Shown: in pieces, positions 186 to 13,253 of the stretch
Position numbering within the stretch: the first letter of the stretch is position 1
Layout: every line of letters starts with the position of its first letter
NCBI GenBank assembly: GCA_020831585.1
Contig: JAFIGE010000005.1
Span: 1 to 64,000, forward strand
DNA from: Opitutales bacterium
Lineage (GTDB): Bacteria; Verrucomicrobiota; Verrucomicrobiia; Opitutales; Oceanipulchritudinaceae
Direction: 5' to 3'
Length of the DNA stretch: 64,000 bases
Notes under the pieces: model-generated
Databases searched by the model: none
The model's input: the letters and a program-made list of their open reading frames with translations, nothing else
Told to the model about the DNA's origin: nothing
Made by a program: the position numbers and the translations under genes

Positions 186-3100
186 TCATTCATCGGTGAC
201 CAGGAGCATGCGCAGGCGTATGAATACGGCTCCGCCGGAGGGGATGGGCTGGCTGTGGATGGTATGGGTCACGGTGCCGTCTTCATGGAAGAGGGATTCG
301 GCCAGGGCCATATCGGCGGGGAGCCAACTGGCCAAGTCGGTGGACTCCTCGATGATACATTCCACGTCAGTGCGATCCGCGCGGGAGCGGTAGGTGAAGA
401 GGAGCCGCTCGCCCTCGGGGGTGGATGCATGCCCGGTGTGCGGCCTGAACGCCTCGGGAAGAGCCTCTGTGGGAGCGATTCCGGCAAGGTATTTGAGCAG
501 ATTGGGCACACCATCTTTCAGGAACGAGGCACCCGGGGCGGTGTCCGGCCCCTCCCCCAGCCCGTGAGATACTAACCATGCGAGATACGGATGGGGTTCC
601 GGTTCTGGATCGGTGCTGTTGAGCACAATTTGCATGCCGTTGATGCCATAGCGTTGCGCTCCGTCACTCCGGTCGATATTCAAGATGAATGAGGTGCCGG
701 AAACACCTTCGAACCTTACATAATTATGCCCGTCGATCGCGTCAGCCGAGGTCGTGGCGATGGAGCGCCGGTGAACGCCGTCCCAGGTATTGTTGGTATC
801 GCGAATCACATAGCTGGTGTCACCAATGGTGTAACGCGGCAGGAAGGTCTCGTTGCGACTACCGCCGAAGTAGACGATCACATCGTAGCTACCTGTAGCG
901 AAGCCAGTCGGGAGGTCGCTGACGGTAACAGTGATGGAAGCCCCCTGCGTCCCCCGGTAGGAAGACATCATACGGTGGTCGCCGCTCAGGGTGGGATCGT
1001 CAGCCGTCGTGTAGGGGTTCGCGTTGTGCTCAACCACAGCTTGCGTCACAATGCCGTTGGCATCCTTCAAGTTACTCACAGGCGTGGTCGTCACATTGTT
1101 CCAATTGGAGGCGGGGACAACACCGGCAACCTCCGCGCCAGCCAAGCTGTTGGCACCAAAATTGATACTGATCAATGATATGACCGGCGCGGCGGTGACC
1201 TCGATAACCACGATCGCGGAGTCGGTATGGCCATTGCTATCAGTCACGGTGAGACGGACCAGGTGATTCCCGGCGGCGAAGGTGTGCGAGGCCGTTTCAC
1301 CGGTCGCATCAATGGTGCCGTTGGCATTCCAGTCCCATTCATAGAGAACGAGGGTGGCATCCCCTTCGACGTAGGAACCGCTCCCGTCAAAATTGACCAA
1401 GAGGGGTGCTTCACCGCTCAGGGTGCTGGCGGCGATGACCGCGACCGGCACTGTTTGCGTGGGATCAGCAACCGTCACGGTGCGGCTGGTGCTGGCCGTG
1501 CGGCCCTGATCGTCAACCACGGTCAGGCCAATGGTGAAGACTCCCGGATCGACAAAGGTATAGTTCGTGACGGCTTGCGCCGTGATGTGATCCGCTGTCC
1601 CGTCATTATTCCAATCCCAGCGGTATTCGACGAGGGTAGCCTCGCCAATCGATGCGGAGGCATCGAATTCAACCGCCAATGGCGCGGTGCCGCTTTGCGG
1701 GCTCATGCTGAAATGGGCAATGGGATCGGATATTGTCTGGGTAACATCCACATAGCGATGGGAAGTCGCCTCCAGGCCCGCGCTGTTGAGGATACGCAGG
1801 GTCACGAGGTAACGCCCGGGGGTGGTCCAGGCGTGCGAGGCTTGTTCGCCCTCCACTTGCCGGCCATCACCGAAATCCCAGAGATAGGAGACCACCGGAA
1901 GGCTGCTTTCGCTGGCAGCCGCGTCGAAGCTGAACGGACCGCTCCCGGAATCAGCGACGGAAAACGTCGCAAAAGGACGCTCCGAAGAAAAGGGCTTCAA
2001 GGCAAAGATACCACTGATGCCGTTGAAGCTGGGAACACCCCACTCCGGCACTTGCGCAGTGGGGATGTCGTTACCCGAGGCAAGATTATGGCCGACGACG
2101 AGCAGCCCCCCGCTGACCGGGAATATGCCGCTCAGGACCGTATTGGCTGCGCCAACCGGCTCGGCATCGATGTCATCGTCCGGATAGGTCCAAACGCCGG
2201 TCAAGGCACTGGAGTAAGCCAGTTGATTCAGCATCGGCTCATACACCCGCACCCATCGGTTCCAGGGCGAGGTGCCTTCATTTAAGATGGGATTATCGTG
2301 CCCAAGACGTCGCGGCAATTTTTGCATGGCATTGCTGGTGGTGACCATGCGGGGGCCCAGCCCGGTTGTGAAGACCCGTCCGTCCGGACCTATCCGGGTC
2401 GAGTTTTCCATGGTACGGGTAGTGGTCACATCCGGCCAACCGGCATTGTGGTGGGGCCAACCGTCGTGAATCGGTTCCGGGTAAGCCGTCGTCGGCCAAT
2501 TGCCCCGATTGCCCATGACCCGACGGAAAAAGCCGGCCAGATACGTGGCCGCGAGCAGATTGCCGTCATCCGCGCGCAAACGGCCTATCCAGCTGATGTG
2601 GATATTCCCCTCGGTGCCGGTGAAGCGGTTTTGAAAACCATTTGCGCCGGGATTGAGGGCGACCGCGTTGCCCGACCAGAAGTTGGAAGTGTTGTTGCCG
2701 TGACAACGGGCCACCACCACGACGCTGCCTCCCTCGCTGAGCGGCACGGAATAATCGACCTCCAGACCGTCGATGTATTGATCGGGAGGCGAAACGAAGG
2801 TGGTATCGATGAGCCCGTCACCCGTGGTGTCGAGAGCCTCGGTGTAGAGGCGGCTCCACCACATCATGCTGCCATCGGCATGGTAAGCGATCACGGCCGG
2901 CTCAAAGTCGGGCTGCTCCTTGTTGGCAGGGGCATCCCAAAAGATCGACTTGATGTTGAAGCCGTAGTAGAAATTGTTGTTGCGCCGATCCACCGTCACC
3001 GCGCCTATCCAATGCCTGCCGGCGGTGCGGTATCCATTGTAGCCATAGGCCCGGTTATTGATAATGCGAATTGGATCTCCCGTATCAAAGGAGTGGGTCA

Positions 3101-3914
3101 CCATGATATCGATCGGCCAGGTTCCCTGGCGGATACCGCCATTGCCATCGGGAGTGATGGCAAACAGTTCGGCGTCATTCCACGATTGGTTGTCCGTCGG
3201 CAGGCGGATGGCGCTGTGCGTGGCGGTTGGAAACTCCGTAGGCAGACCCCGCTGCCACGCCCCATCCACCCAGTGACTGGCGCGCAAGGCCGGGAGGCTG
3301 GTCAAGTTGCCCGCCGGATCGAGAAATCCGATGGTCGCGCTGAATTCACCGCCGTGGGCAAACACCACCCTGCCGTCATTGCCAACATCCCAGGCTTGGT
3401 AAACCTCATGCCCGTTGGCGGCCGCCGCCACATGCACCCAATTCAAAGCGTCGGGCACCCCCTGCACAAAGTTGTTGTTCAGTGGCCCGATGAAATAGCC
3501 GCCGCTGACTTGCCCGGAGACATAGAGGGTTCCGGTCGGGTCACCCGGCACTTCGGTCGAACGCATCCAGCGCAAGTTGAGAGCGGCCCCGGCGGGCAAA
3601 TGAACCACCTCCGGAATCCGCTCGGTATCCCCACTCAAACGCATGATGAACGACACGGTCGTGCCGGAGGGCGCTGGCAATCCCGTAACGCTCAACTCAG
3701 TGCGCGGCACCGCGCTGTCGATCCAGTTCAAGTTGGCCGACACCCCCGCGACCAGAAGGGTGCCGTCCGATAGTTCCCGCACATCGGTGAAGCGGGTGTC
3801 CGCACCAGCCCCGGCGTAGGTCACAACGAACCGTTGATCGGCGTGCACTGCACTGCATGCGAGGATAAGCGAGACGAGCAACGGAAGACAAACCAATAGG
3901 GGGCATCGTTTCAT
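186..3914 (-). CDS. Large secreted PKD-domain protein with verrucomicrobial C-terminal module
   Basis: A 1242-residue protein with a clear signal peptide (positively charged start, hydrophobic core, cleavage near residue 25 after VHA), so it is exported. Residues of about 30-690 form an unrecognised, possibly beta-propeller region with repeated short blocks about record-like values. Three PKD domains follow (about 690-960), recognisable by WDFGDG, WDWNNDG and WDWNANG motifs with later T-x-R-x-V-x-V-T strands. Next is a carbohydrate-binding, malectin-like domain (about 960-1120) starting INFG. The last 130 residues contain GVPNLLKYLAG, a module also found at the end of the giant protein at 6226. 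No catalytic motif was recognised, so a role in surface or polysaccharide binding is inference. The start is the only ATG before the signal peptide. Confidence 0.75.
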   Translation of the reverse strand: MKRCPLLVCLPLLVSLILACSAVHADQRFVVTYAGAGADTRFTDVRELSDGTLLVAGVSANLNWIDSAVPRTELSVTGLPAPSGTTVSFIMRLSGDTERIPEVVHLPAGAALNLRWMRSTEVPGDPTGTLYVSGQVSGGYFIGPLNNNFVQGVPDALNWVHVAAAANGHEVYQAWDVGNDGRVVFAHGGEFSATIGFLDPAGNLTSLPALRASHWVDGAWQRGLPTEFPTATHSAIRLPTDNQSWNDAELFAITPDGNGGIRQGTWPIDIMVTHSFDTGDPIRIINNRAYGYNGYRTAGRHWIGAVTVDRRNNNFYYGFNIKSIFWDAPANKEQPDFEPAVIAYHADGSMMWWSRLYTEALDTTGDGLIDTTFVSPPDQYIDGLEVDYSVPLSEGGSVVVVARCHGNNTSNFWSGNAVALNPGANGFQNRFTGTEGNIHISWIGRLRADDGNLLAATYLAGFFRRVMGNRGNWPTTAYPEPIHDGWPHHNAGWPDVTTTRTMENSTRIGPDGRVFTTGLGPRMVTTSNAMQKLPRRLGHDNPILNEGTSPWNRWVRVYEPMLNQLAYSSALTGVWTYPDDDIDAEPVGAANTVLSGIFPVSGGLLVVGHNLASGNDIPTAQVPEWGVPSFNGISGIFALKPFSSERPFATFSVADSGSGPFSFDAAASESSLPVVSYLWDFGDGRQVEGEQASHAWTTPGRYLVTLRILNSAGLEATSHRYVDVTQTISDPIAHFSMSPQSGTAPLAVEFDASASIGEATLVEYRWDWNNDGTADHITAQAVTNYTFVDPGVFTIGLTVVDDQGRTASTSRTVTVADPTQTVPVAVIAASTLSGEAPLLVNFDGSGSYVEGDATLVLYEWDWNANGTIDATGETASHTFAAGNHLVRLTVTDSNGHTDSAIVVIEVTAAPVISLISINFGANSLAGAEVAGVVPASNWNNVTTTPVSNLKDANGIVTQAVVEHNANPYTTADDPTLSGDHRMMSSYRGTQGASITVTVSDLPTGFATGSYDVIVYFGGSRNETFLPRYTIGDTSYVIRDTNNTWDGVHRRSIATTSADAIDGHNYVRFEGVSGTSFILNIDRSDGAQRYGINGMQIVLNSTDPEPEPHPYLAWLVSHGLGEGPDTAPGASFLKDGVPNLLKYLAGIAPTEALPEAFRPHTGHASTPEGERLLFTYRSRADRTDVECIIEESTDLASWLPADMALAESLFHEDGTVTHTIHSQPIPSGGAVFIRLRMLLVTDE

Positions 3915-4022: not shown

Positions 4023-4066
4023 ACATCAGGAGATTTTTGGGATGGGTATCCCGTGACTTGGGTGAC

Positions 4067-5017
4067 GTAGCCAGCCTCGCCAGAGGGTGGATGGGCCGGG
4101 TTCGAAGATACGGGCAATCCGGTCCACGCTTTGGCAAGCGTGGCTACGGGGGTTCCTTCGTGGTTTTCGGCCGGACTCCTTCGTAGCCAGCCTCGCCAGA
4201 GGGTGGATCGGCGGGGTTCGCAGATCCGGGCACTCCGCCGTCCACGCTTTGGCAAGCGTGGCTACGGCGGTTTTTCGTGGTTTTTTGGCCGGACACCCCG
4301 TAGCCAGCCTCGCCAGAGGGTGGATGGGCGGGGTTCGCCGATCCGGGCACTCCCTCCACGCTTTGGCAAACGTAGCTACGGCGGTTCCTTCGTGGTTTTT
4401 CGGCCGGACCCTCCGTAGCCAGCCTCGCCAGAGGGTGGATGGGCGGGGTTCGCCGATACAAGCACTCCGGTCCACGCTTTGGCAAGCGTAGCTACGGCGG
4501 TTCATTGTGGTTTTTCGGCCGGACGCCTTCGTAGCCAGCCTCGCAAGAGGGTGGATTGGCGGGGTCCGCAGATCCGGGCACTCCGTCCACGCTTTGGCAA
4601 GCGTAGCTACGGCGGTTTTTCGTGGTTTTTTGGCCGGACACCCCGTAGCCAGCCTCGCAAGAGGGTGGATTCGGCGGGATTCGACGATCCGGGCGCTCCG
4701 GTCCACGCTTTGGCAAGCGTGGCTACGGGGGTTCCTTCGTGGTTTTCGGCCGGACGCCTTCGTAGCCAGCCTCGCAAGAGGGTGGATGGGCGGGATTCGA
4801 AGATACGGGCACTCCGGTCCACGCTTTGGCAAGCGTGGCTACGGGGGTTCCTTCGTGGTTTTCGGCCGGACACCTTCGTAGCCAGCCTCGCCAGAGGGTG
4901 GATGGGCAGGGTTCGAAGATACGGGCACCTCCCTCCACGCTTTGGCAAGCGTGGCTACGGGGGTTCCTTCGTGGTTTTCGGCCGGACACCTTCGTAGCCA
5001 GCCTCGCCAGAGGGTGG
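4067..5017. repeat. Tandem REP array I, eight full units plus one left arm
   Basis: Left arms beginning GTAGCCAGCCTCGC start at 4067, 4183, 4300, 4415, 4531, 4645, 4762, 4878 and 4994, a period of 114-117 bp. The ninth unit is cut after its left arm. Each full unit pairs the left arm (GTAG, 8-bp stem, loop GCCA) with an inverted right arm whose minus-strand reading begins GTAGCCACGCTT or GTAGCTACGCTT and has an almost perfect stem with the same loop. The arms are separated by about 30 bp containing GATCCGGGCAC-like text, and units are joined by a linker rich in TTCGTGGTTTTCGGCCGGAC. This is the layout of a BIME, paired inverted REPs in tandem. Reading frames through it are by-products of the repeat. 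Confidence 0.9.
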
Positions 5018-5665
5018 ATGGGCAGGGATTCCCACACATTTCTCCTTGAGGTCCGCAACCCGCTTTTTCAGCATCCTTCCGTGTCGGCATTTCACTCACT
5101 CCCCTCGGATTTCGGGAAAAAGCGCCACCTGCCCCGACTCCCGCCAGCTCATTACCAGGGCGGCTCATTCGTCTTTTGGACACATACCGTGGCCAACCGC
5201 TCCACAGGATGGCTTTCCCCGACCGTCCACCTTGCCTTTCGCGAAGCATTTCTTCACGCCCAAACCCGCGAAGGGCTCGCCTGCCCCGTGTATGTGCTCA
5301 TGCCCGATCACCTCCACTGTCTCTGGATCGGCGCATCGCCGGCATCCGATCAGCGCCTGGCCGCGCGGGCGCTCCGCCGCCAGATAACCAACCTCATCCG
5401 GCCACATCGCCTCCAGGATCAAGCCCATGACCATGTTCTGCGCGAGGAAGAGCGGACGGAAGGCGCCTTCGCCACCGTGTGGCAATACATGGCCGAGAAT
5501 CCCCGACGCGCCGGCCTCGTGGACGACTGGCGCGGCTATCCCTATCTGGGTGCCCTGGTCCCCGGCTACCCCGGCCTCGATCCCCGCGAAGTCGATTTCC
5601 TCGCGCGATTTTGGCGCGTTTACCAAGCCTTCTCCGATCGCCTAAGGAAATCGCCGCCTTCGTAG
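5018..5665 (+). CDS. REP-associated tyrosine transposase (RAYT, IS200/IS605 Y1-like)
   Basis: A single-strand DNA transposase of the HUH superfamily, expected to nick at GTAG-headed REP hairpins and to mobilise or process them. The signature DHLHCLW (H98 and H100 from the ATG at 5018) is the HUH metal site, and the probable catalytic tyrosine is Y157 in the YMAENPRRAGL block. At 215 aa it is of usual size; the conserved fold begins near residue 40, so GTG at 5081 is another possible start. The ATG at 5018 directly follows the ninth REP left arm, whose stem provides AGAGGG as a ribosome site. The TAG stop (5663-5665) is part of the GTAG of the first REP of the next array. Flanking by arrays on both sides supports this being the cognate enzyme. 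Confidence 0.88.
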   Translation: MGRDSHTFLLEVRNPLFQHPSVSAFHSLPSDFGKKRHLPRLPPAHYQGGSFVFWTHTVANRSTGWLSPTVHLAFREAFLHAQTREGLACPVYVLMPDHLHCLWIGASPASDQRLAARALRRQITNLIRPHRLQDQAHDHVLREEERTEGAFATVWQYMAENPRRAGLVDDWRGYPYLGALVPGYPGLDPREVDFLARFWRVYQAFSDRLRKSPPS

Positions 5666-6213
5666 CCAGCCTCGCCAGAGGGTGGATGGGCGGGGTTCGC
5701 AGATCCGGGAGCTCCCGGTCCACGCTTTGGCAAGCGTGGCTACGGGGGTTTTTCGTGGTTTTTCGGCCGGACCCTCCGTAGCCAGCCTCGCCAGAGGGTG
5801 GATGGGCGGGGTTCGCCGATACAGGCAATCCGGTCCACGCTTTGGCAAGCGTAGCTACGGGGGTTTTTCGTGGTTTTCGGCCGAACGCCTCCTTTGTAGC
5901 CAACCTCGCCAGAGGGTGGATTGGCGGGGTTCGAAGATACTGGCGCTCCCGGTCCACGCTTTGGCAAGCGTAGCTACGGGGGTTTTTCGTGGTTTTCGGC
6001 CGAACGCCTCCTTTGTAGCCAACCTCGCCAGAGGGTGGATTGGCGGGGTTCGAAGATACTGGCGCTCCCGGTCCACGCTTTGGCAAGCGTGGCTACGGGG
6101 GTTCCTTCGTGGTTTTCGGCCGGACACCCCGTAGCCAGCCTCGCAAGAGGGTGGATTCGGCAGGGGTTCGCCGATCCGGGCACTCCGGTCCACGCTTTGG
6201 CAAGCGTAGCTAC
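5662..6213. repeat. Tandem REP array II, five units
   Basis: Left arms start at 5662, 5778, 5896, 6015 and 6131, with a period of 116-119 bp, and the last right arm ends at 6213. The units are the same as in array I. The third and fourth carry the variant GTAGCCAACCTC and an enlarged linker with GCCTCCTTT, and are almost identical to each other, which points to recent local duplication. The array ends 12 bp beyond the stop codon of the giant minus-strand gene at 6226. Confidence 0.9.
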
Positions 6214-6225
6214 GGGGGGCGGCGG

Positions 6226-9200
6226 TCAGTCGTCGATCTCCACCCGGACCTGGACAAACCGCGGCGTGGAGGCGGATATCGGGCCGTCCGGATGGGTCAC
6301 CTCGACGTGTTGGATCTCACCGGCGGCGGAATCCTGAACGTGGGCGGGTCCGCTCCAGGCATCGGCACCGGGTTCGAGCGTGGCGATGGCTGTCCAGCTG
6401 CCGGGCGCGAGGGAATCCGAGGTCTCGACAAGGATACGCACATCGACGCTGGCCCGCCGGGTAAAGGCGATCACGTGGCCATCGTGCATCACGGGCAGGC
6501 CCGCGCGGGCGTTGGGCAGGAGGTCGAGGCCAAGGGCGTATTCGAGCAGGTTCGGAATCCCGCGTTGCCAGGGGTCGGCCCCGGGCGCGCCCGCCGGATC
6601 CAGGAGATCCCCGAAGCGGTCCATGCGCCACGCTTCATAGCCATCGGCGATCCGCCGCGCCTCGATGCGCACATTGTCGAAAACGCCGGACAACGTGCTG
6701 GTCGAGGCTGAGCCCCCGTCGGCGCTGTAGCGCAGGCGCACACGGACATCGGCGGCATCGCGCAGGGCCCCGATTTCCGCCAGATCGAGGGCGACAAGGG
6801 TTGTCGTGCGGTAGTCCGCACTGGCGAGGGTGGTGAAGGCGGTGTAACTGAGCCCTCCGTCGACGCTCCATTCGACGGTCGCGCTTGACGGGAGCAGGTC
6901 GCCCGTTCCGTAGGCGAAAGAAATCATGGCTGCCTCGAAACCGGTCATGTCGAAACGCAGTTCGACGATGCCGTTGTCCCAACGCGAATTGCGGCGCAGT
7001 TCGATCCGACCGCCCGCCACCGTCCCATCGGAGGCGTTGATGAGGGTGCCCCCGCTGGGGCTGCGGGCAAAGTTTGTCCCGGAAGCCTGCGTGCTGCGGA
7101 CGAAGAGGATGCCGGAGCCAAGGTCAGCCGGCAGCGACTCCTCAAAGCCGGTGGTAACAGTCTCAGAGGCAAACTGGTTGAAGTTCCATTCCGCCAGCAC
7201 CACTTCCATCGACGGCAGGACAAACAGGAAAACGCTCGCCGGGGCACTCTCCACGCTGCCGCCCGCATTGGTCACGACAACATCGTAGACACCCTCATGC
7301 GGGAGCCCGAAGCCGCTGATTCGCAGCGTATGGGTGTCGGCACCGGAGACGCCTCCGCCGTTTGCCAGCGGCACGCCGCCGCGGCGCCATTGGAAGGTGA
7401 ACGGCGCCGAACCGGAAACCTCCACGGAGAGAACCAGCTCCCCACCCTCGTTCACCGTTCCACCCTGCGGCTGACTCGTGATCTGCGGGGCGACCAGCTC
7501 GGTCACCTGAAGATTGGCGGGGTTGCTCACGGCGAAGCCCACCGAGTTGGTCACGACGACGTCGTAGGCACCCTCGTCGTCATAGGTCAGGCCGGAGAGC
7601 GTCAAGGTGTGCGTGCCGGCACCCGATATCCGGGGACCGTCGTCGAGCGGTTCGCCGTCCTTGCGCCACTGGTAGGCGAAAAACGGAGGCGAACCGGTGG
7701 CGACCACGCTGAACTGAATCGTCGCCGTCTCGTAGGAGAGGGTGTCCGGCGGATGGCCAACAATCACCGGTGCCGAAGGCTCCGAGAAGACATCGATCAC
7801 GACCGATGCGGTGGACTGCAGGTTTGCGCTGTTCGTCGCCGTGAGCGTAAGGGTGTGCGTGCCGACGGAGAGGTTGCCCACGCTCAGCGTCGAACCGTTG
7901 CCAAGCGCGCCGTCGATACTGGAAGACCACTCCAGGAAGGGATTGTCCAGGGGGCCATCGCTGTCCTCGCCCGAACCGCTGAGCATGATCGGCTCGCCCA
8001 GGAAAAACCAGTCGCCGTTGGCCGGAGATTCAATGCTCACGATGGGTGGCGCATCGGGGCTGCCGGTTTTATCGACAATCTGAAAGCCGGAGATGGCCTC
8101 GCCGTTGCGCTGTGGTATCGAAAGCACCATGTCGGCACCCATCAAATTGCGCCAGAGGATGACGTTGTCTCCCCGGATCGCCTCGCCTGCGGTGGCCGCC
8201 TCCGAGACCCGCCACTGGCCGGGGAAATCGTGCCCCGGCTTCCAGGCCCAGCGCCGGATGCCGTTCACATCGATCGCCCGCGGTTCGTCCACGTTGGCAC
8301 CGGCATAGTAGACATAGACGTCATAAACCGCGTAGGGAATGTTGGCGACTTCAAGGGTGAAGCCGGTGTCGCTTCCCCAGGGCTGCTTGCCCAGGTTGAT
8401 CTGGGCGAGGACCGTGTCGCCATTGAAGGGATCCACGGTGTGCGCGGCGATGAAGATGGCTTGATTTCCTGTAGTGGAAAAATGGATATTCACCGGCTGA
8501 CCGGAGGAATCATACCAACCGGCGCTGACAGATTGCCGGATATTGTTCCAGTAGCCCACGGGGATGACGCCGGCCCCACGGGTGAAATCCATCCGGCGCG
8601 CCCGATCGTTGGCATTGAAACTGAGCACGCCCCGCCCGCCGTTGGGCGGGAGGACTTCGACCGTGTGAAATGCGCTGCTCACGCGACCGCGCTCGTCCGT
8701 CACGATGAGGACGGGATTGTAGACGCCCGCTTTCCGGTAGGTGTGGGAGGCCGACTCGCCGGTCGCAAAGGCACCGTCGCCAAACTCCCAGCGAAAGGTC
8801 ATGGCGTCGCCATCGGGATCATAGGTGGAAGCGGCGCTGAAGTGAACCGTGCTGCCGGCGAGGAGGATCGTGTCGCTCGCGGAGATGTGGGCCACGGGAG
8901 GCGCGTTCGGCGAGGACGGGGCGACCGTGATGGTTTCCGAGATCTGGGCAGATTTCCCGAGGGCATCCGTTACAGTGAGGAGCACGGAGTAGATACCCGG
9001 CTCGTAGAAAGTGTGCTCCATCCGGTCCCTTTCCACAAGGTGGCGAAGCACGTTGCCGTTACCGAAATCCCAGGTGTAGTAGAGCCAGTCGCCGTCCGGA
9101 TCGACCGTTGCGCTGGCATCGAAGCTCACCGTGAGCGGGGCCTCGCCGGCGTTTGTCGATACGGCAAGGGTGGGAACGGGGGCGGTATTGCCATCGATGT

Positions 9201-12200
9201 TCGGATCGTGTTCGAAGTAGTTGAACAGTTGGATCTCGGTCAGCTCCACCCGGCCATCGATACCGCCCGACTGATTGCGCAGGTGAAAGAGGTAGTGCGA
9301 ATAGGCCTCATCGTTGGGCAGGGAATAGATGGTCGGTATGCTGCGGGCCACTCCGGCCTGATCCCGCACGGTATCGATGAGTGTCCACGAGGCGTTGACC
9401 GCACCGGGCTCCATGGAGAAGGGTTGCGGATTGTTGGAACCATAGACTTCCCAATCTTTCGGATCGCGGTCGGCCGTCCACGGAAGCCCGCCGGCGGTGA
9501 AGGCATACTCGGTGATGTTCACCCGCCGGTCCGCACCGTCGCGGTTGGTGAAGCGGAACATGACCCACTCTTCGGGATTTTCCGATACCCAGCGTGTCTC
9601 GAACTTTCCGTCGCCAAGCATCGCTCCACCGAGGTCCGGGCGCAGTTGGGAGGAAAAGGTCAACTCGACGCCCGGCTCGAGCACCTGATTGACCGCCTGG
9701 GTGGTGTCACGCGGAGCGGTGCGCTGATCGAAGGCGTGGCGGGTGCGGGTGATGGAGGTTTGCGGGATCATGACGAGCCCGGCATAGCGCGACACGGTGA
9801 TTTGTTCGCCGACAACAATGGATCGGCCCGTGCTGTCGGTGGCCGTGAGGGTTGCGTTGAAGACCTGGTGGGCCAATTCGGAGGGCAGGTGGTAGGTGTG
9901 TGCTACACGGCGTTGGTTGCTCGTGTTGCCGTCGCCGAAGTCCCAATGGTATTGCAGGGGCAATCCGTCCGGACTGTTGAAGGTGGACTCAAACATCACC
10001 GTGCCGCCGTCGTAGACCGTCGCGGGCGTGGCCGAAAAGGTCGGCTGAAAGAGCGACACCTGCGAAAAGAGGATGCTGTCCGGTATCGGCCGGTAGCGGT
10101 CTGTTCCGGGGGGTGCCCAGGAAATATCGAAGCGGTTCCATTCTTCGTGCGCATCCTCAACGTTGTAGGTCGCCTCAATCCGGAAGGGATGCCAACCGGC
10201 CTCGAGGGCCACAAGTGATTCAAAGGTGGGGGAACCATGGGGATAGGTGCTGCGGACCGCGATCTGACCGCCGATGTGGATACGCGTCTCGTTGCGCGTG
10301 CGCAAGCGGAAGGCGTAGGCCCCGGTCTCTGCGATGTGGATGTAGCCGTCGAAGACAAGCACGTAGAGATTCGCCAAGTTGGTCACACCGAGATCGTAGT
10401 TGGAGATACGGCCGCGGTTCAGCGGGCGCAGGGTCGTGATCTCCGGCATATTGGTTCCGCGCGTCGGGTCACCGCGAAACACCTGGTAGTTCAGGCCCTG
10501 CAACAGGTTTTCCGGCTCTTCCACGGAAGCGATGATGTCCTGCGGCCCGAGGGCCGTGATCCACCTCGACACTTGGTGGGACTTGCCCGCGCTGTCGATT
10601 ACGGTAAGCCGCACGCGGTGCTCTTTCGCCTGCGTGAAGGTGTGGGTGATCAAGGGATGGGTCGTCTCTGTGATCGTGCCGTCGTTGAAATCCCAGCGGT
10701 AGAGCAGCGGGTCACCTTCCGGATCGAAGGAGGCGGAGGCGTCGAAATCCACCGAGAAGGGCACAAACCCGCCGAGCGAGCTGAAGGTAAAGCTGGCCAC
10801 CGGAGGCAGGTTTTCCACGCGGATGGCGATGCGCGCGGCATTCAGGTTGCCCGCCGTGTCCTCCGCCCGCAGTTCCACCTGATAGGTGCTCTCCGTCGGC
10901 CAGCTCACCTGAATGGTCTGGCCGGTCATCGTGCGCCCGTCGCCAAGGAACCATTGGTAGGTGAGAGGATCATTTTCGGGATCCGTCGACGTCCCGGCGT
11001 CGAGGGTGATCGTCACTCCCGGCAGCACCGTGGTCGCGCTGGCCGTGATGCGCGCGGTCGGCTCGCGGTTGCCGACAAAAATGTCGCGCACGACGCGGTC
11101 CGCCCCGCCATTCCCATCGTCCACGCCCAGACTGACAAGGTAAAGGCCGTCATTGGCGTAGGTATGGCTCAGGGCCTGCGCTGTGGACGTGGTGCCGTCG
11201 CCAAAGTCCCAGGAATAGACTAGGGTCTCCGCCGTATCCACGAAGCCACTACCATTGAAGCTCACGCTCAGCGGTGCCAGCCCACGGGTGGGATTCGCGG
11301 AAAGGCCGGGCGCGGTGGACCGGTTCAAACCCGTCAGCGTCGAGGATTCGATGCGCTGGGTGGCGGCGTTGTAGGTCAGCACGCTGTTTCCGAGTGTGAC
11401 CGCCGCATCCAGCCCCGACCCTACCATGGAAAAAGCCGGCGGCGTGCCGTGACCGGTCGCCATGACCACCCAGATATCGATGTTGGCCGCGTCGTAGGCA
11501 TAGCGGGTCGCCTGATTCTGGGTGATGAAGCCGTTGCCGTGAACCATGAACCAGGCCTTCAGGTAGGCGCCGTTCGCATCCACGGAGAGAAAGTAGTCGA
11601 CGTCATAGACCGTATCCGTGCCCACCGTCACGGTCATGCCCGGCTGGAATAGATTCCAGGCATAGGTGTGCACTTCATTGGCGCGGAGGCGGTCGAAGGT
11701 GGAAATGATCGAAAAGCCTTCCGGAGAGAAATCGGCCATGACGTGGCGAACGGCCTCCGCCACCCCGAGGTTGCTGAATTTGCTCCCGCCGTTGACGATG
11801 GCGTAGCCGCCCTGCGGGGCCACGCGGTGCTCCACCGCCGAACCGGTCCCGGATTCGGCGCGGGCCAGACCATTGACGAGAATCTGCGAAAAGGCCGTGT
11901 CCAGCCCGGAGGTCGCCGGACCGGGCCCGTAGCCCCACTTCGCGCCGTGCGAGAGAATGTTGATCTGCCCGGCGTCGAGCTGGTTCCATGAACGCCCGTA
12001 GGCCCCCGTATCCGACCAGAGGCTGACGATCGTATCGTTGGCATCAGTCCAGCCGCTGCGCATGACGTAGCCCCCGCGGCTGTCGTTGATGACCGTCGGG
12101 TAATGGCCAAACGGATCTTCCGCGGGCACACTGTTCGGGTAGCCGATGAGCGCATAGATCGTGCCGCCGGCCTGGTAATCATACTTGGCCGAAGGCGGGG

Positions 12201-13173
12201 CGGGATTGTGGATGCCCCGGTAGCGATCGTAAAACCAGCGGTAAAAGCCCGTCTCCCCCTCCGGCACGAGGGCCAGCAGGGCGCTCGTCATACCGGCGGG
12301 CGGCAGGGTGTCGCCCCCGACGCCCCAGGTGAGCGAGTTTTGCCCGGCGTTGAACTGGCCCGCATACATGATGATGTGATGCGGACGGCGGCTTGCAAAG
12401 CTGGGCTCCACGTGCGGATCGCCGATCTGGCGCAGGGCCATCATGGCAGGAAAGAGGTATTCCATGGAGAGCCCGAAATAATAATTGCCCTCCTGCGTCC
12501 ATCCGCGGTCGCCAAAGGAGGCCAGGTGGGTGCGCAGCAGCTCGCGGCTGCGCTGGAAATCAAAGCGGCGCGTGCGCTCCTCGCCCATCGCGATGAGGGT
12601 CATCACGTGCGCCCCGGCCACCACCCCGCTCCAGTTGGAGTTGTTCGCCTGATAGCCGATGTTGGGATGCGAGAGCGCCTGCGCCGCATACTGGTTCAGG
12701 CCGCTCGTCACCTTGCCCGCCACCCAGTCCCGCTGCGCCGGACTCAGGCCCTCGTAGGCCCAGTTGTAGGCCATGGCAAAGCTGGCGATGGTTTGCGCCC
12801 GGCCCAGGCCGCTGGCCGCATCGGGGGCCGCCTGACCGTCCGGCACGCTGATCGTGTAGATCTCCTGCAATCGGTCAAAGGCCACCTGCGCGTAGGCGGC
12901 ATTGCCCGTGAGAAGGTAGAGGAAGGAAGCCTCCCGCGCCATGTAGCCGCGCTGGTAGCTCGACGTGCCCGGAATATGATTCGCGTCCACCCGCGCCTTG
13001 AGGGCGTGGTAGGCCTCGTGATGGGTCGTCCCGGGCACGGTCACAAGCGTGCGGATCTCATCAAGACGCGCCTCATCGAGCAGAAAAAGAGCGGGTCGCG
13101 CCGCCAAGGCGGAGGCTGTCAGGCCAAGAAGCGCGCAGCACCACAGGAAAAGGCAGGTTGATCGGAGTCTCAT
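6226..13173 (-). CDS. Giant secreted heparinase/alginate-lyase-like protein with PKD, PA14, discoidin-like and Ig-like domains
   Basis: About 2315 residues from the ATG at 13173, which puts a signal peptide (RLRST, then a long hydrophobic run ending ASALA) at the N-terminus; an in-frame start at 13209 would add 12 residues. Residues of about 30-620 resemble the alpha-toroid plus beta-sandwich of polysaccharide lyases of the heparinase II/III and alginate-lyase type (EARLDEIRTLV, NNSNWSGVVAG, SWNQLDAGQINI), suggesting uronic-acid polysaccharide cleavage. PKD domains follow with WDFGDGTT, WFLGDGRT and WDFNDGT motifs, a PA14 domain (about 880-1010), another PKD, a discoidin-like domain, two more PKDs, a malectin-like domain, Ig-like domains with YQWRKDGEPL and FQWRRGGVPL, and a beta-sandwich. 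The C-terminus carries the GIPNLLEYALG module shared with the protein at 186. Enzyme specificity is not established. Confidence 0.75.
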   Translation of the reverse strand: MRLRSTCLFLWCCALLGLTASALAARPALFLLDEARLDEIRTLVTVPGTTHHEAYHALKARVDANHIPGTSSYQRGYMAREASFLYLLTGNAAYAQVAFDRLQEIYTISVPDGQAAPDAASGLGRAQTIASFAMAYNWAYEGLSPAQRDWVAGKVTSGLNQYAAQALSHPNIGYQANNSNWSGVVAGAHVMTLIAMGEERTRRFDFQRSRELLRTHLASFGDRGWTQEGNYYFGLSMEYLFPAMMALRQIGDPHVEPSFASRRPHHIIMYAGQFNAGQNSLTWGVGGDTLPPAGMTSALLALVPEGETGFYRWFYDRYRGIHNPAPPSAKYDYQAGGTIYALIGYPNSVPAEDPFGHYPTVINDSRGGYVMRSGWTDANDTIVSLWSDTGAYGRSWNQLDAGQINILSHGAKWGYGPGPATSGLDTAFSQILVNGLARAESGTGSAVEHRVAPQGGYAIVNGGSKFSNLGVAEAVRHVMADFSPEGFSIISTFDRLRANEVHTYAWNLFQPGMTVTVGTDTVYDVDYFLSVDANGAYLKAWFMVHGNGFITQNQATRYAYDAANIDIWVVMATGHGTPPAFSMVGSGLDAAVTLGNSVLTYNAATQRIESSTLTGLNRSTAPGLSANPTRGLAPLSVSFNGSGFVDTAETLVYSWDFGDGTTSTAQALSHTYANDGLYLVSLGVDDGNGGADRVVRDIFVGNREPTARITASATTVLPGVTITLDAGTSTDPENDPLTYQWFLGDGRTMTGQTIQVSWPTESTYQVELRAEDTAGNLNAARIAIRVENLPPVASFTFSSLGGFVPFSVDFDASASFDPEGDPLLYRWDFNDGTITETTHPLITHTFTQAKEHRVRLTVIDSAGKSHQVSRWITALGPQDIIASVEEPENLLQGLNYQVFRGDPTRGTNMPEITTLRPLNRGRISNYDLGVTNLANLYVLVFDGYIHIAETGAYAFRLRTRNETRIHIGGQIAVRSTYPHGSPTFESLVALEAGWHPFRIEATYNVEDAHEEWNRFDISWAPPGTDRYRPIPDSILFSQVSLFQPTFSATPATVYDGGTVMFESTFNSPDGLPLQYHWDFGDGNTSNQRRVAHTYHLPSELAHQVFNATLTATDSTGRSIVVGEQITVSRYAGLVMIPQTSITRTRHAFDQRTAPRDTTQAVNQVLEPGVELTFSSQLRPDLGGAMLGDGKFETRWVSENPEEWVMFRFTNRDGADRRVNITEYAFTAGGLPWTADRDPKDWEVYGSNNPQPFSMEPGAVNASWTLIDTVRDQAGVARSIPTIYSLPNDEAYSHYLFHLRNQSGGIDGRVELTEIQLFNYFEHDPNIDGNTAPVPTLAVSTNAGEAPLTVSFDASATVDPDGDWLYYTWDFGNGNVLRHLVERDRMEHTFYEPGIYSVLLTVTDALGKSAQISETITVAPSSPNAPPVAHISASDTILLAGSTVHFSAASTYDPDGDAMTFRWEFGDGAFATGESASHTYRKAGVYNPVLIVTDERGRVSSAFHTVEVLPPNGGRGVLSFNANDRARRMDFTRGAGVIPVGYWNNIRQSVSAGWYDSSGQPVNIHFSTTGNQAIFIAAHTVDPFNGDTVLAQINLGKQPWGSDTGFTLEVANIPYAVYDVYVYYAGANVDEPRAIDVNGIRRWAWKPGHDFPGQWRVSEAATAGEAIRGDNVILWRNLMGADMVLSIPQRNGEAISGFQIVDKTGSPDAPPIVSIESPANGDWFFLGEPIMLSGSGEDSDGPLDNPFLEWSSSIDGALGNGSTLSVGNLSVGTHTLTLTATNSANLQSTASVVIDVFSEPSAPVIVGHPPDTLSYETATIQFSVVATGSPPFFAYQWRKDGEPLDDGPRISGAGTHTLTLSGLTYDDEGAYDVVVTNSVGFAVSNPANLQVTELVAPQITSQPQGGTVNEGGELVLSVEVSGSAPFTFQWRRGGVPLANGGGVSGADTHTLRISGFGLPHEGVYDVVVTNAGGSVESAPASVFLFVLPSMEVVLAEWNFNQFASETVTTGFEESLPADLGSGILFVRSTQASGTNFARSPSGGTLINASDGTVAGGRIELRRNSRWDNGIVELRFDMTGFEAAMISFAYGTGDLLPSSATVEWSVDGGLSYTAFTTLASADYRTTTLVALDLAEIGALRDAADVRVRLRYSADGGSASTSTLSGVFDNVRIEARRIADGYEAWRMDRFGDLLDPAGAPGADPWQRGIPNLLEYALGLDLLPNARAGLPVMHDGHVIAFTRRASVDVRILVETSDSLAPGSWTAIATLEPGADAWSGPAHVQDSAAGEIQHVEVTHPDGPISASTPRFVQVRVEIDD

Positions 13174-13253
13174 CAGGGGGAATAGGGGATTCAGAAATCG
13201 AAAAACCATGGTAGCCGACAGGGTTGTTTCGGGCTATGCGTTTTCCCGTATAA

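Follow-up and report, generated by a model that had tools for sequence, protein, structure and literature searches.

REPtrons and the translation of RAYT genes

Among the closest described counterparts of the locus are REPtrons whose RAYT (REP-associated tyrosine transposase) genes are accompanied by GTAG-tagged REPs. The GTAG termini of REPs often supply the TAG stop codon of flanking ORFs (PMC3733652, 2013), and RAYT genes with REPs overlapping their 5' or 3' end are marked in the same study, which also names the verrucomicrobial O. terrae as rich in GTAG repeats. It has likewise been noted that REPs can follow rayt stop codons directly and that the 3' ends of rayt genes are incorporated into BIMEs (PMC2817692). 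RAYTs seem to be kept at a low level and their mode of expression is not known, with hairpins suggested to reduce RAYT translation as in IS200 (PMC3733652); for IS200 tnpA, a hairpin that covers the ribosome site is reported to have been demonstrated (PMC12594629).

A divergent RAYT gene within a BIME array

The frame at positions 5018 to 5665 (+ strand) of the window, the 64,000-nucleotide stretch of Opitutales DNA that was analyzed, holds 215 uninterrupted codons up to a TAG at 5663 to 5665. Counted from its ATG, the putative product has 215 amino acids, with the conserved domain starting at about residue 34 (5117). It matches the NCBIfam model REP_Tyr_transpos with an E value of 4e-16 and 59.1 bits, a score below the curated NCBIfam equivalog cutoff of 80, and a Pfam search of the protein gave no significant match. 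The best relative of solved structure is E. coli TnpA_REP (4ER8; E value of 6e-5). In an 11-row alignment the histidines of the motif H98-L-H100 are invariant and Y157 is at least 90% conserved, giving the HUH motif and the catalytic tyrosine of Y1 transposases. The gene is the sole copy found in the genome. A scan of genome contigs gave only three distant loci. On the published features, namely the HUH motif with its tyrosine and recurrent flanking GTAG REPs, we call the protein a RAYT, as a divergent member.

The gene sits in a BIME array at 4067 to 6213 with a unit period of approximately 116 bp and 14 left REPs, each unit combining a left REP on the + strand (GTAGCCAGCCTCGCMAGAGGGTGGA) with a right REP on the - strand (GTAGCCACGCTTGCCAAAGCGTGGA). 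In the upstream part (4067 to 4993), left REPs at 4067, 4183, 4300, 4415, 4531, 4645, 4762, and 4878 (+ strand) alternate with right REPs on the - strand, the last of which lies at 4934 to 4958. The left REP at 4994 to 5017 (+ strand) abuts the gene on its 5' side; it consists of GTAG and an imperfect 8-bp stem with the loop GCCA, in the layout GTAG-CCAGCCTC-GCCA-GAGGGTGG, and its 3' arm contains AGAGGG (5009 to 5014). An identical left REP occupies 5662 to 5685 (+ strand), and the downstream part (5686 to 6213) holds further left REPs at 5778, 5896, 6015, and 6131 (+ strand) and right REPs at 5719, 5834, 5953, 6072, and 6189 (- strand). The two REPs nearest the gene are thus direct repeats (4994 and 5662, both +), their inverted partners being the next units out (4934 and 5719, both -). 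Allowing up to three mismatches, 38 left and 49 right REPs were found genome-wide, densest near the RAYT gene, while reversed-pattern controls gave 0 matches genome-wide in the same search. On both sides, the gene is accompanied by GTAG-tagged palindromes found repeatedly in the genome.

The locus is very probably a compact REPtron, a single RAYT gene set flush between GTAG hairpins, the presumed binding and cleavage substrates of its protein. The profile match, the 4ER8 relationship, the conserved HLH and tyrosine, the concentration of REP matches around the gene, and the recurrence of the REP-derived TAG in relatives (see below) all favor this reading; the subthreshold NCBIfam score and the shared direction of the REPs that touch the gene, where inverted flanks have been described, count against it. 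The protein would act on the hairpins as single-stranded DNA. Functional REPs would hug the gene, and because of this the gene ends would meet them: the invariant GTAG provides the TAG on which the ORF terminates, and at the 5' end the gene would approach the preceding REP or extend into it.

Several other features were noted. A second large array of the same REP family, with seven left REPs and without a RAYT gene, is present at L151 (G000:C255:15621-16565), and a small one with a 92-bp period and a different linker (CCCCCGATCCGGAGA) at L152 (G000:C42:2951-3318). Long frames at 4026 to 4832 (-), 4826 to 5665 (+), and 5394 to 6086 (-) of the window are probably spurious ORFs arising from the REP arrays and could be annotated as proteins by gene callers. 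On either side of the REPtron is a large minus-strand gene (186 to 3914 and 6226 to 13209). Both genes have apparent PKD-type repeats as judged by eye, and the stop codon of the second is approximately 13 nt from the last REP. No sigma-70 promoter or terminator was found in a scan of 4850 to 5700.

The stop codon is supplied by a REP, here and recurrently in relatives

The first-pass annotation had proposed that the gene is framed by REPs and that its stop codon is the TAG within the GTAG at 5662. The latter is borne out, as the TAG at 5663 to 5665 lies within that REP, and the framing itself is supported by both the sequence and the comparison with relatives. For the comparison, relatives were drawn from the family, the order, a second family, and the class, oriented, and cleared of redundant copies, leaving 99 nonredundant loci, 98 of them with a complete stop codon. 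In 20 of these 98 the stop coincides exactly with the TAG of a GTAG hairpin that is repeated locally, sharply at one offset, with other overlaps of + strand REPs and stop codons in the set occurring as scattered singletons; a REP overlaps the stop or lies within 10 nt of it in 55 of the 98. Of 43 TAG stops, 37 read GTAG, while a G precedes TGA stops in 11 of 44 cases and occupies 32% of third positions. Against this 32% wobble G, the excess of GTAG at TAG stops has a P value of about 3e-13, although the sequences are not independent. Of 42 loci, 24 have their nearest + strand REP in frame (P = 0.002); both P values are approximate because the loci are related. On a quick tree, the strict REP-TAG state changes at least 16 times and the GTAG state at least 27 times, so the GTAG stop has been repeatedly gained or lost. 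Together, the REP-TAG counts, the GTAG excess, the in-frame REPs, and the tree changes indicate, at the level of sequence, that the REP-derived stop is real and recurrent among RAYT relatives, beyond chance. A Pirellulaceae locus (L007), outside the main statistics of the final set, also has a REP-given GTAG stop.

The start codon and the upstream REP

The ATG at 5018 to 5020 (+ strand) directly adjoins the end of the REP at 5017, as the first-pass annotation had stated, and is a putative start codon. It is, however, part of the REP linker (ATGGGCAGGG), and the same ATGGGC follows 9 of the 14 left REPs of the array; the ATG is therefore repeat sequence and not a gene-specific feature. The AGAGGG described as lying at a fitting distance is indeed present, but that wording overstated the case, the spacer being only 3 nt from AGAGGG and 4 nt from the GAGG core. 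Pairing of AGAGGG with the standard anti-SD tail, assumed here since a search of the assembly for the organism's own tail did not recover the 16S end motif, amounts to -7.9 kcal/mol and is equaled by 8.7% of random sites in the window.

An ATG is present between the REP and the conserved block in 60 of the 99 loci, most commonly 12 to 27 nt before the block (median of 21). The ATG at 5018 is extreme in this respect, lying 105 nt before the conserved HLPR block and giving the longest N terminus of the 60. In the closest relative, L002 (55 to 57% identity), that N terminus is absent, as an in-frame stop excludes any start before approximately residue 17, and a GTG and an ATG are found at residues 21 and 24. 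The in-frame GTG at 5081 to 5083 (+ strand) is residue 22, a position typical of the relatives, whose starts fall at residues 24 to 32. Translation might accordingly begin at this GTG, leaving the REP and the ATG at 5018 in a 5' leader with no direct role in initiation, a reading that we hold tentatively. Against it, the GTG lacks ribosome-site complementarity (+1.2 kcal/mol), and GTG start codons are less common than ATG. In favor of the ATG at 5018, the open frame has no other ATG ahead of the conserved block, and the codon-usage score of 5018 to 5116 is best in its frame of all six, over a stretch too short to fix the start. On balance the GTG at 5081 is slightly favored over the ATG at 5018.

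In relatives the ATG usually lies 7 to 180 nt beyond the REP, and in L028 and L134 (the latter assigned by reading) it comes 1 nt after the REP with no ribosome site there. A REP-given ribosome site is therefore not shared, and a conserved ATG directly after a REP that carries the ribosome site was rejected by this comparison. Thus, across RAYT loci the REP-overlapping stop recurs but the REP-given ribosome site does not, and the start half of the earlier finding is a coincidence of repeat sequence until the start is mapped.

In approximately 13 loci forming one clade (L018, L024, L028, L134, L108, L099, L101, L103, L105, L017, L039, L137, and L144), the open frame includes the upstream REP, about 30 to 60 nt before the conserved block; membership was assigned by reading of the sequences, with two changes on the tree. 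There the REP would be read in the same frame, as [S/R]-x-x-E-R-x-R-V or similar, for example SSHERERV. By reading, the N-terminal stretches of L018 and L024 outside the REP differ partly at third positions, as expected of coding sequence. This clade lends some support to translation of the REP in the present locus as well, from a TTG at 4826 or a GTG at 4835 or 4898, the frame being open from 4766. Such a start is nevertheless highly improbable, as there is no ATG in that stretch, the sites are weak, and one or two more REPs would have to be crossed.

Predicted folding around the putative ribosome site

The left REP alone is predicted to fold at -12.6 kcal/mol, a value reached by 10 of 200 shuffled sequences, and together with the preceding right REP it gives a larger predicted structure (-63.4; z score of -4.4). 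Of three fold contexts, two leave the core G5010 to G5013 almost completely paired and the third opens one of its bases; the AUG is largely paired in one context and open in another. As the GAGG is mostly paired in these predictions, translational damping could occur, and a hairpin hiding the putative ribosome site of the RAYT gene is possible.

The fuller proposal is that translation starts at the ATG at 5018 from the AGAGGG and that the REP hairpin hides this site and limits transposase synthesis, as in IS200 tnpA. Pairing of the GAGG in both local and extended folds and the IS200 5' stem-loop that sequesters the ribosome site (PMC12594629) speak for it, as do the features of the ATG and GTG given above. 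The proposal is nonetheless unlikely: it depends on a start that the comparison does not favor, the spacer is short, the pairing is matched by about 9% of random sites in the window, the ATG belongs to a generic repeat linker, a ribosome site within the REP was not seen in relatives, and one of the three folds leaves the AUG unpaired. Under the preferred reading of a compact REPtron, the upstream hairpin and the larger folds of paired REPs may still lower translation, as a by-product of the role of the REP as DNA.

It is also conceivable, if rather improbable, that selection acts on the REPs of this lineage in two ways, for their use as DNA substrate and for their part in the gene (stop codon, N-terminal codons, and damping hairpin), such that each REPtron would limit its own transposase and REP changes would coevolve with protein output. 

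GTAG serves recurrently as the stop, in 20 to 37 of the 98 loci. Together with the clade with a REP-read N terminus, this shows a tight interlocking of gene and DNA substrate, and these loci are natural variants with which the effects of REPs on RAYT output could be tested.

Comparison with known systems

With E. coli TnpA_REP (4ER8) the locus shares, by sequence, membership in the HUH/Y1 transposase family and a BIME-flanked gene, but similarity is low and the REP sequence is different. As for IS200 tnpA, a hairpin over the ribosome site has been proposed; for the present locus it comes from predicted folding, and the start is uncertain. The REPtrons with GTAG REPs (Di Nocera 2013, PMC3733652; Nunvar 2010, PMC2817692) have in common with this locus the HUH motif and tyrosine, the BIME context, GTAG REPs at both ends, TAG stops from REP termini, and REPs overlapping the gene ends. 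Unlike in those REPtrons, whose RAYTs are described with inverted flanking REPs, the touching REPs are direct here, and the open frame extends exactly from the ATG behind one left REP to the TAG supplied by the following one, within an array of 14 left REPs. The locus thus belongs to a described kind, the REPtron with overlapping REPs; the present analysis contributes figures for a single RAYT lineage and the clade with a REP-encoded N terminus.
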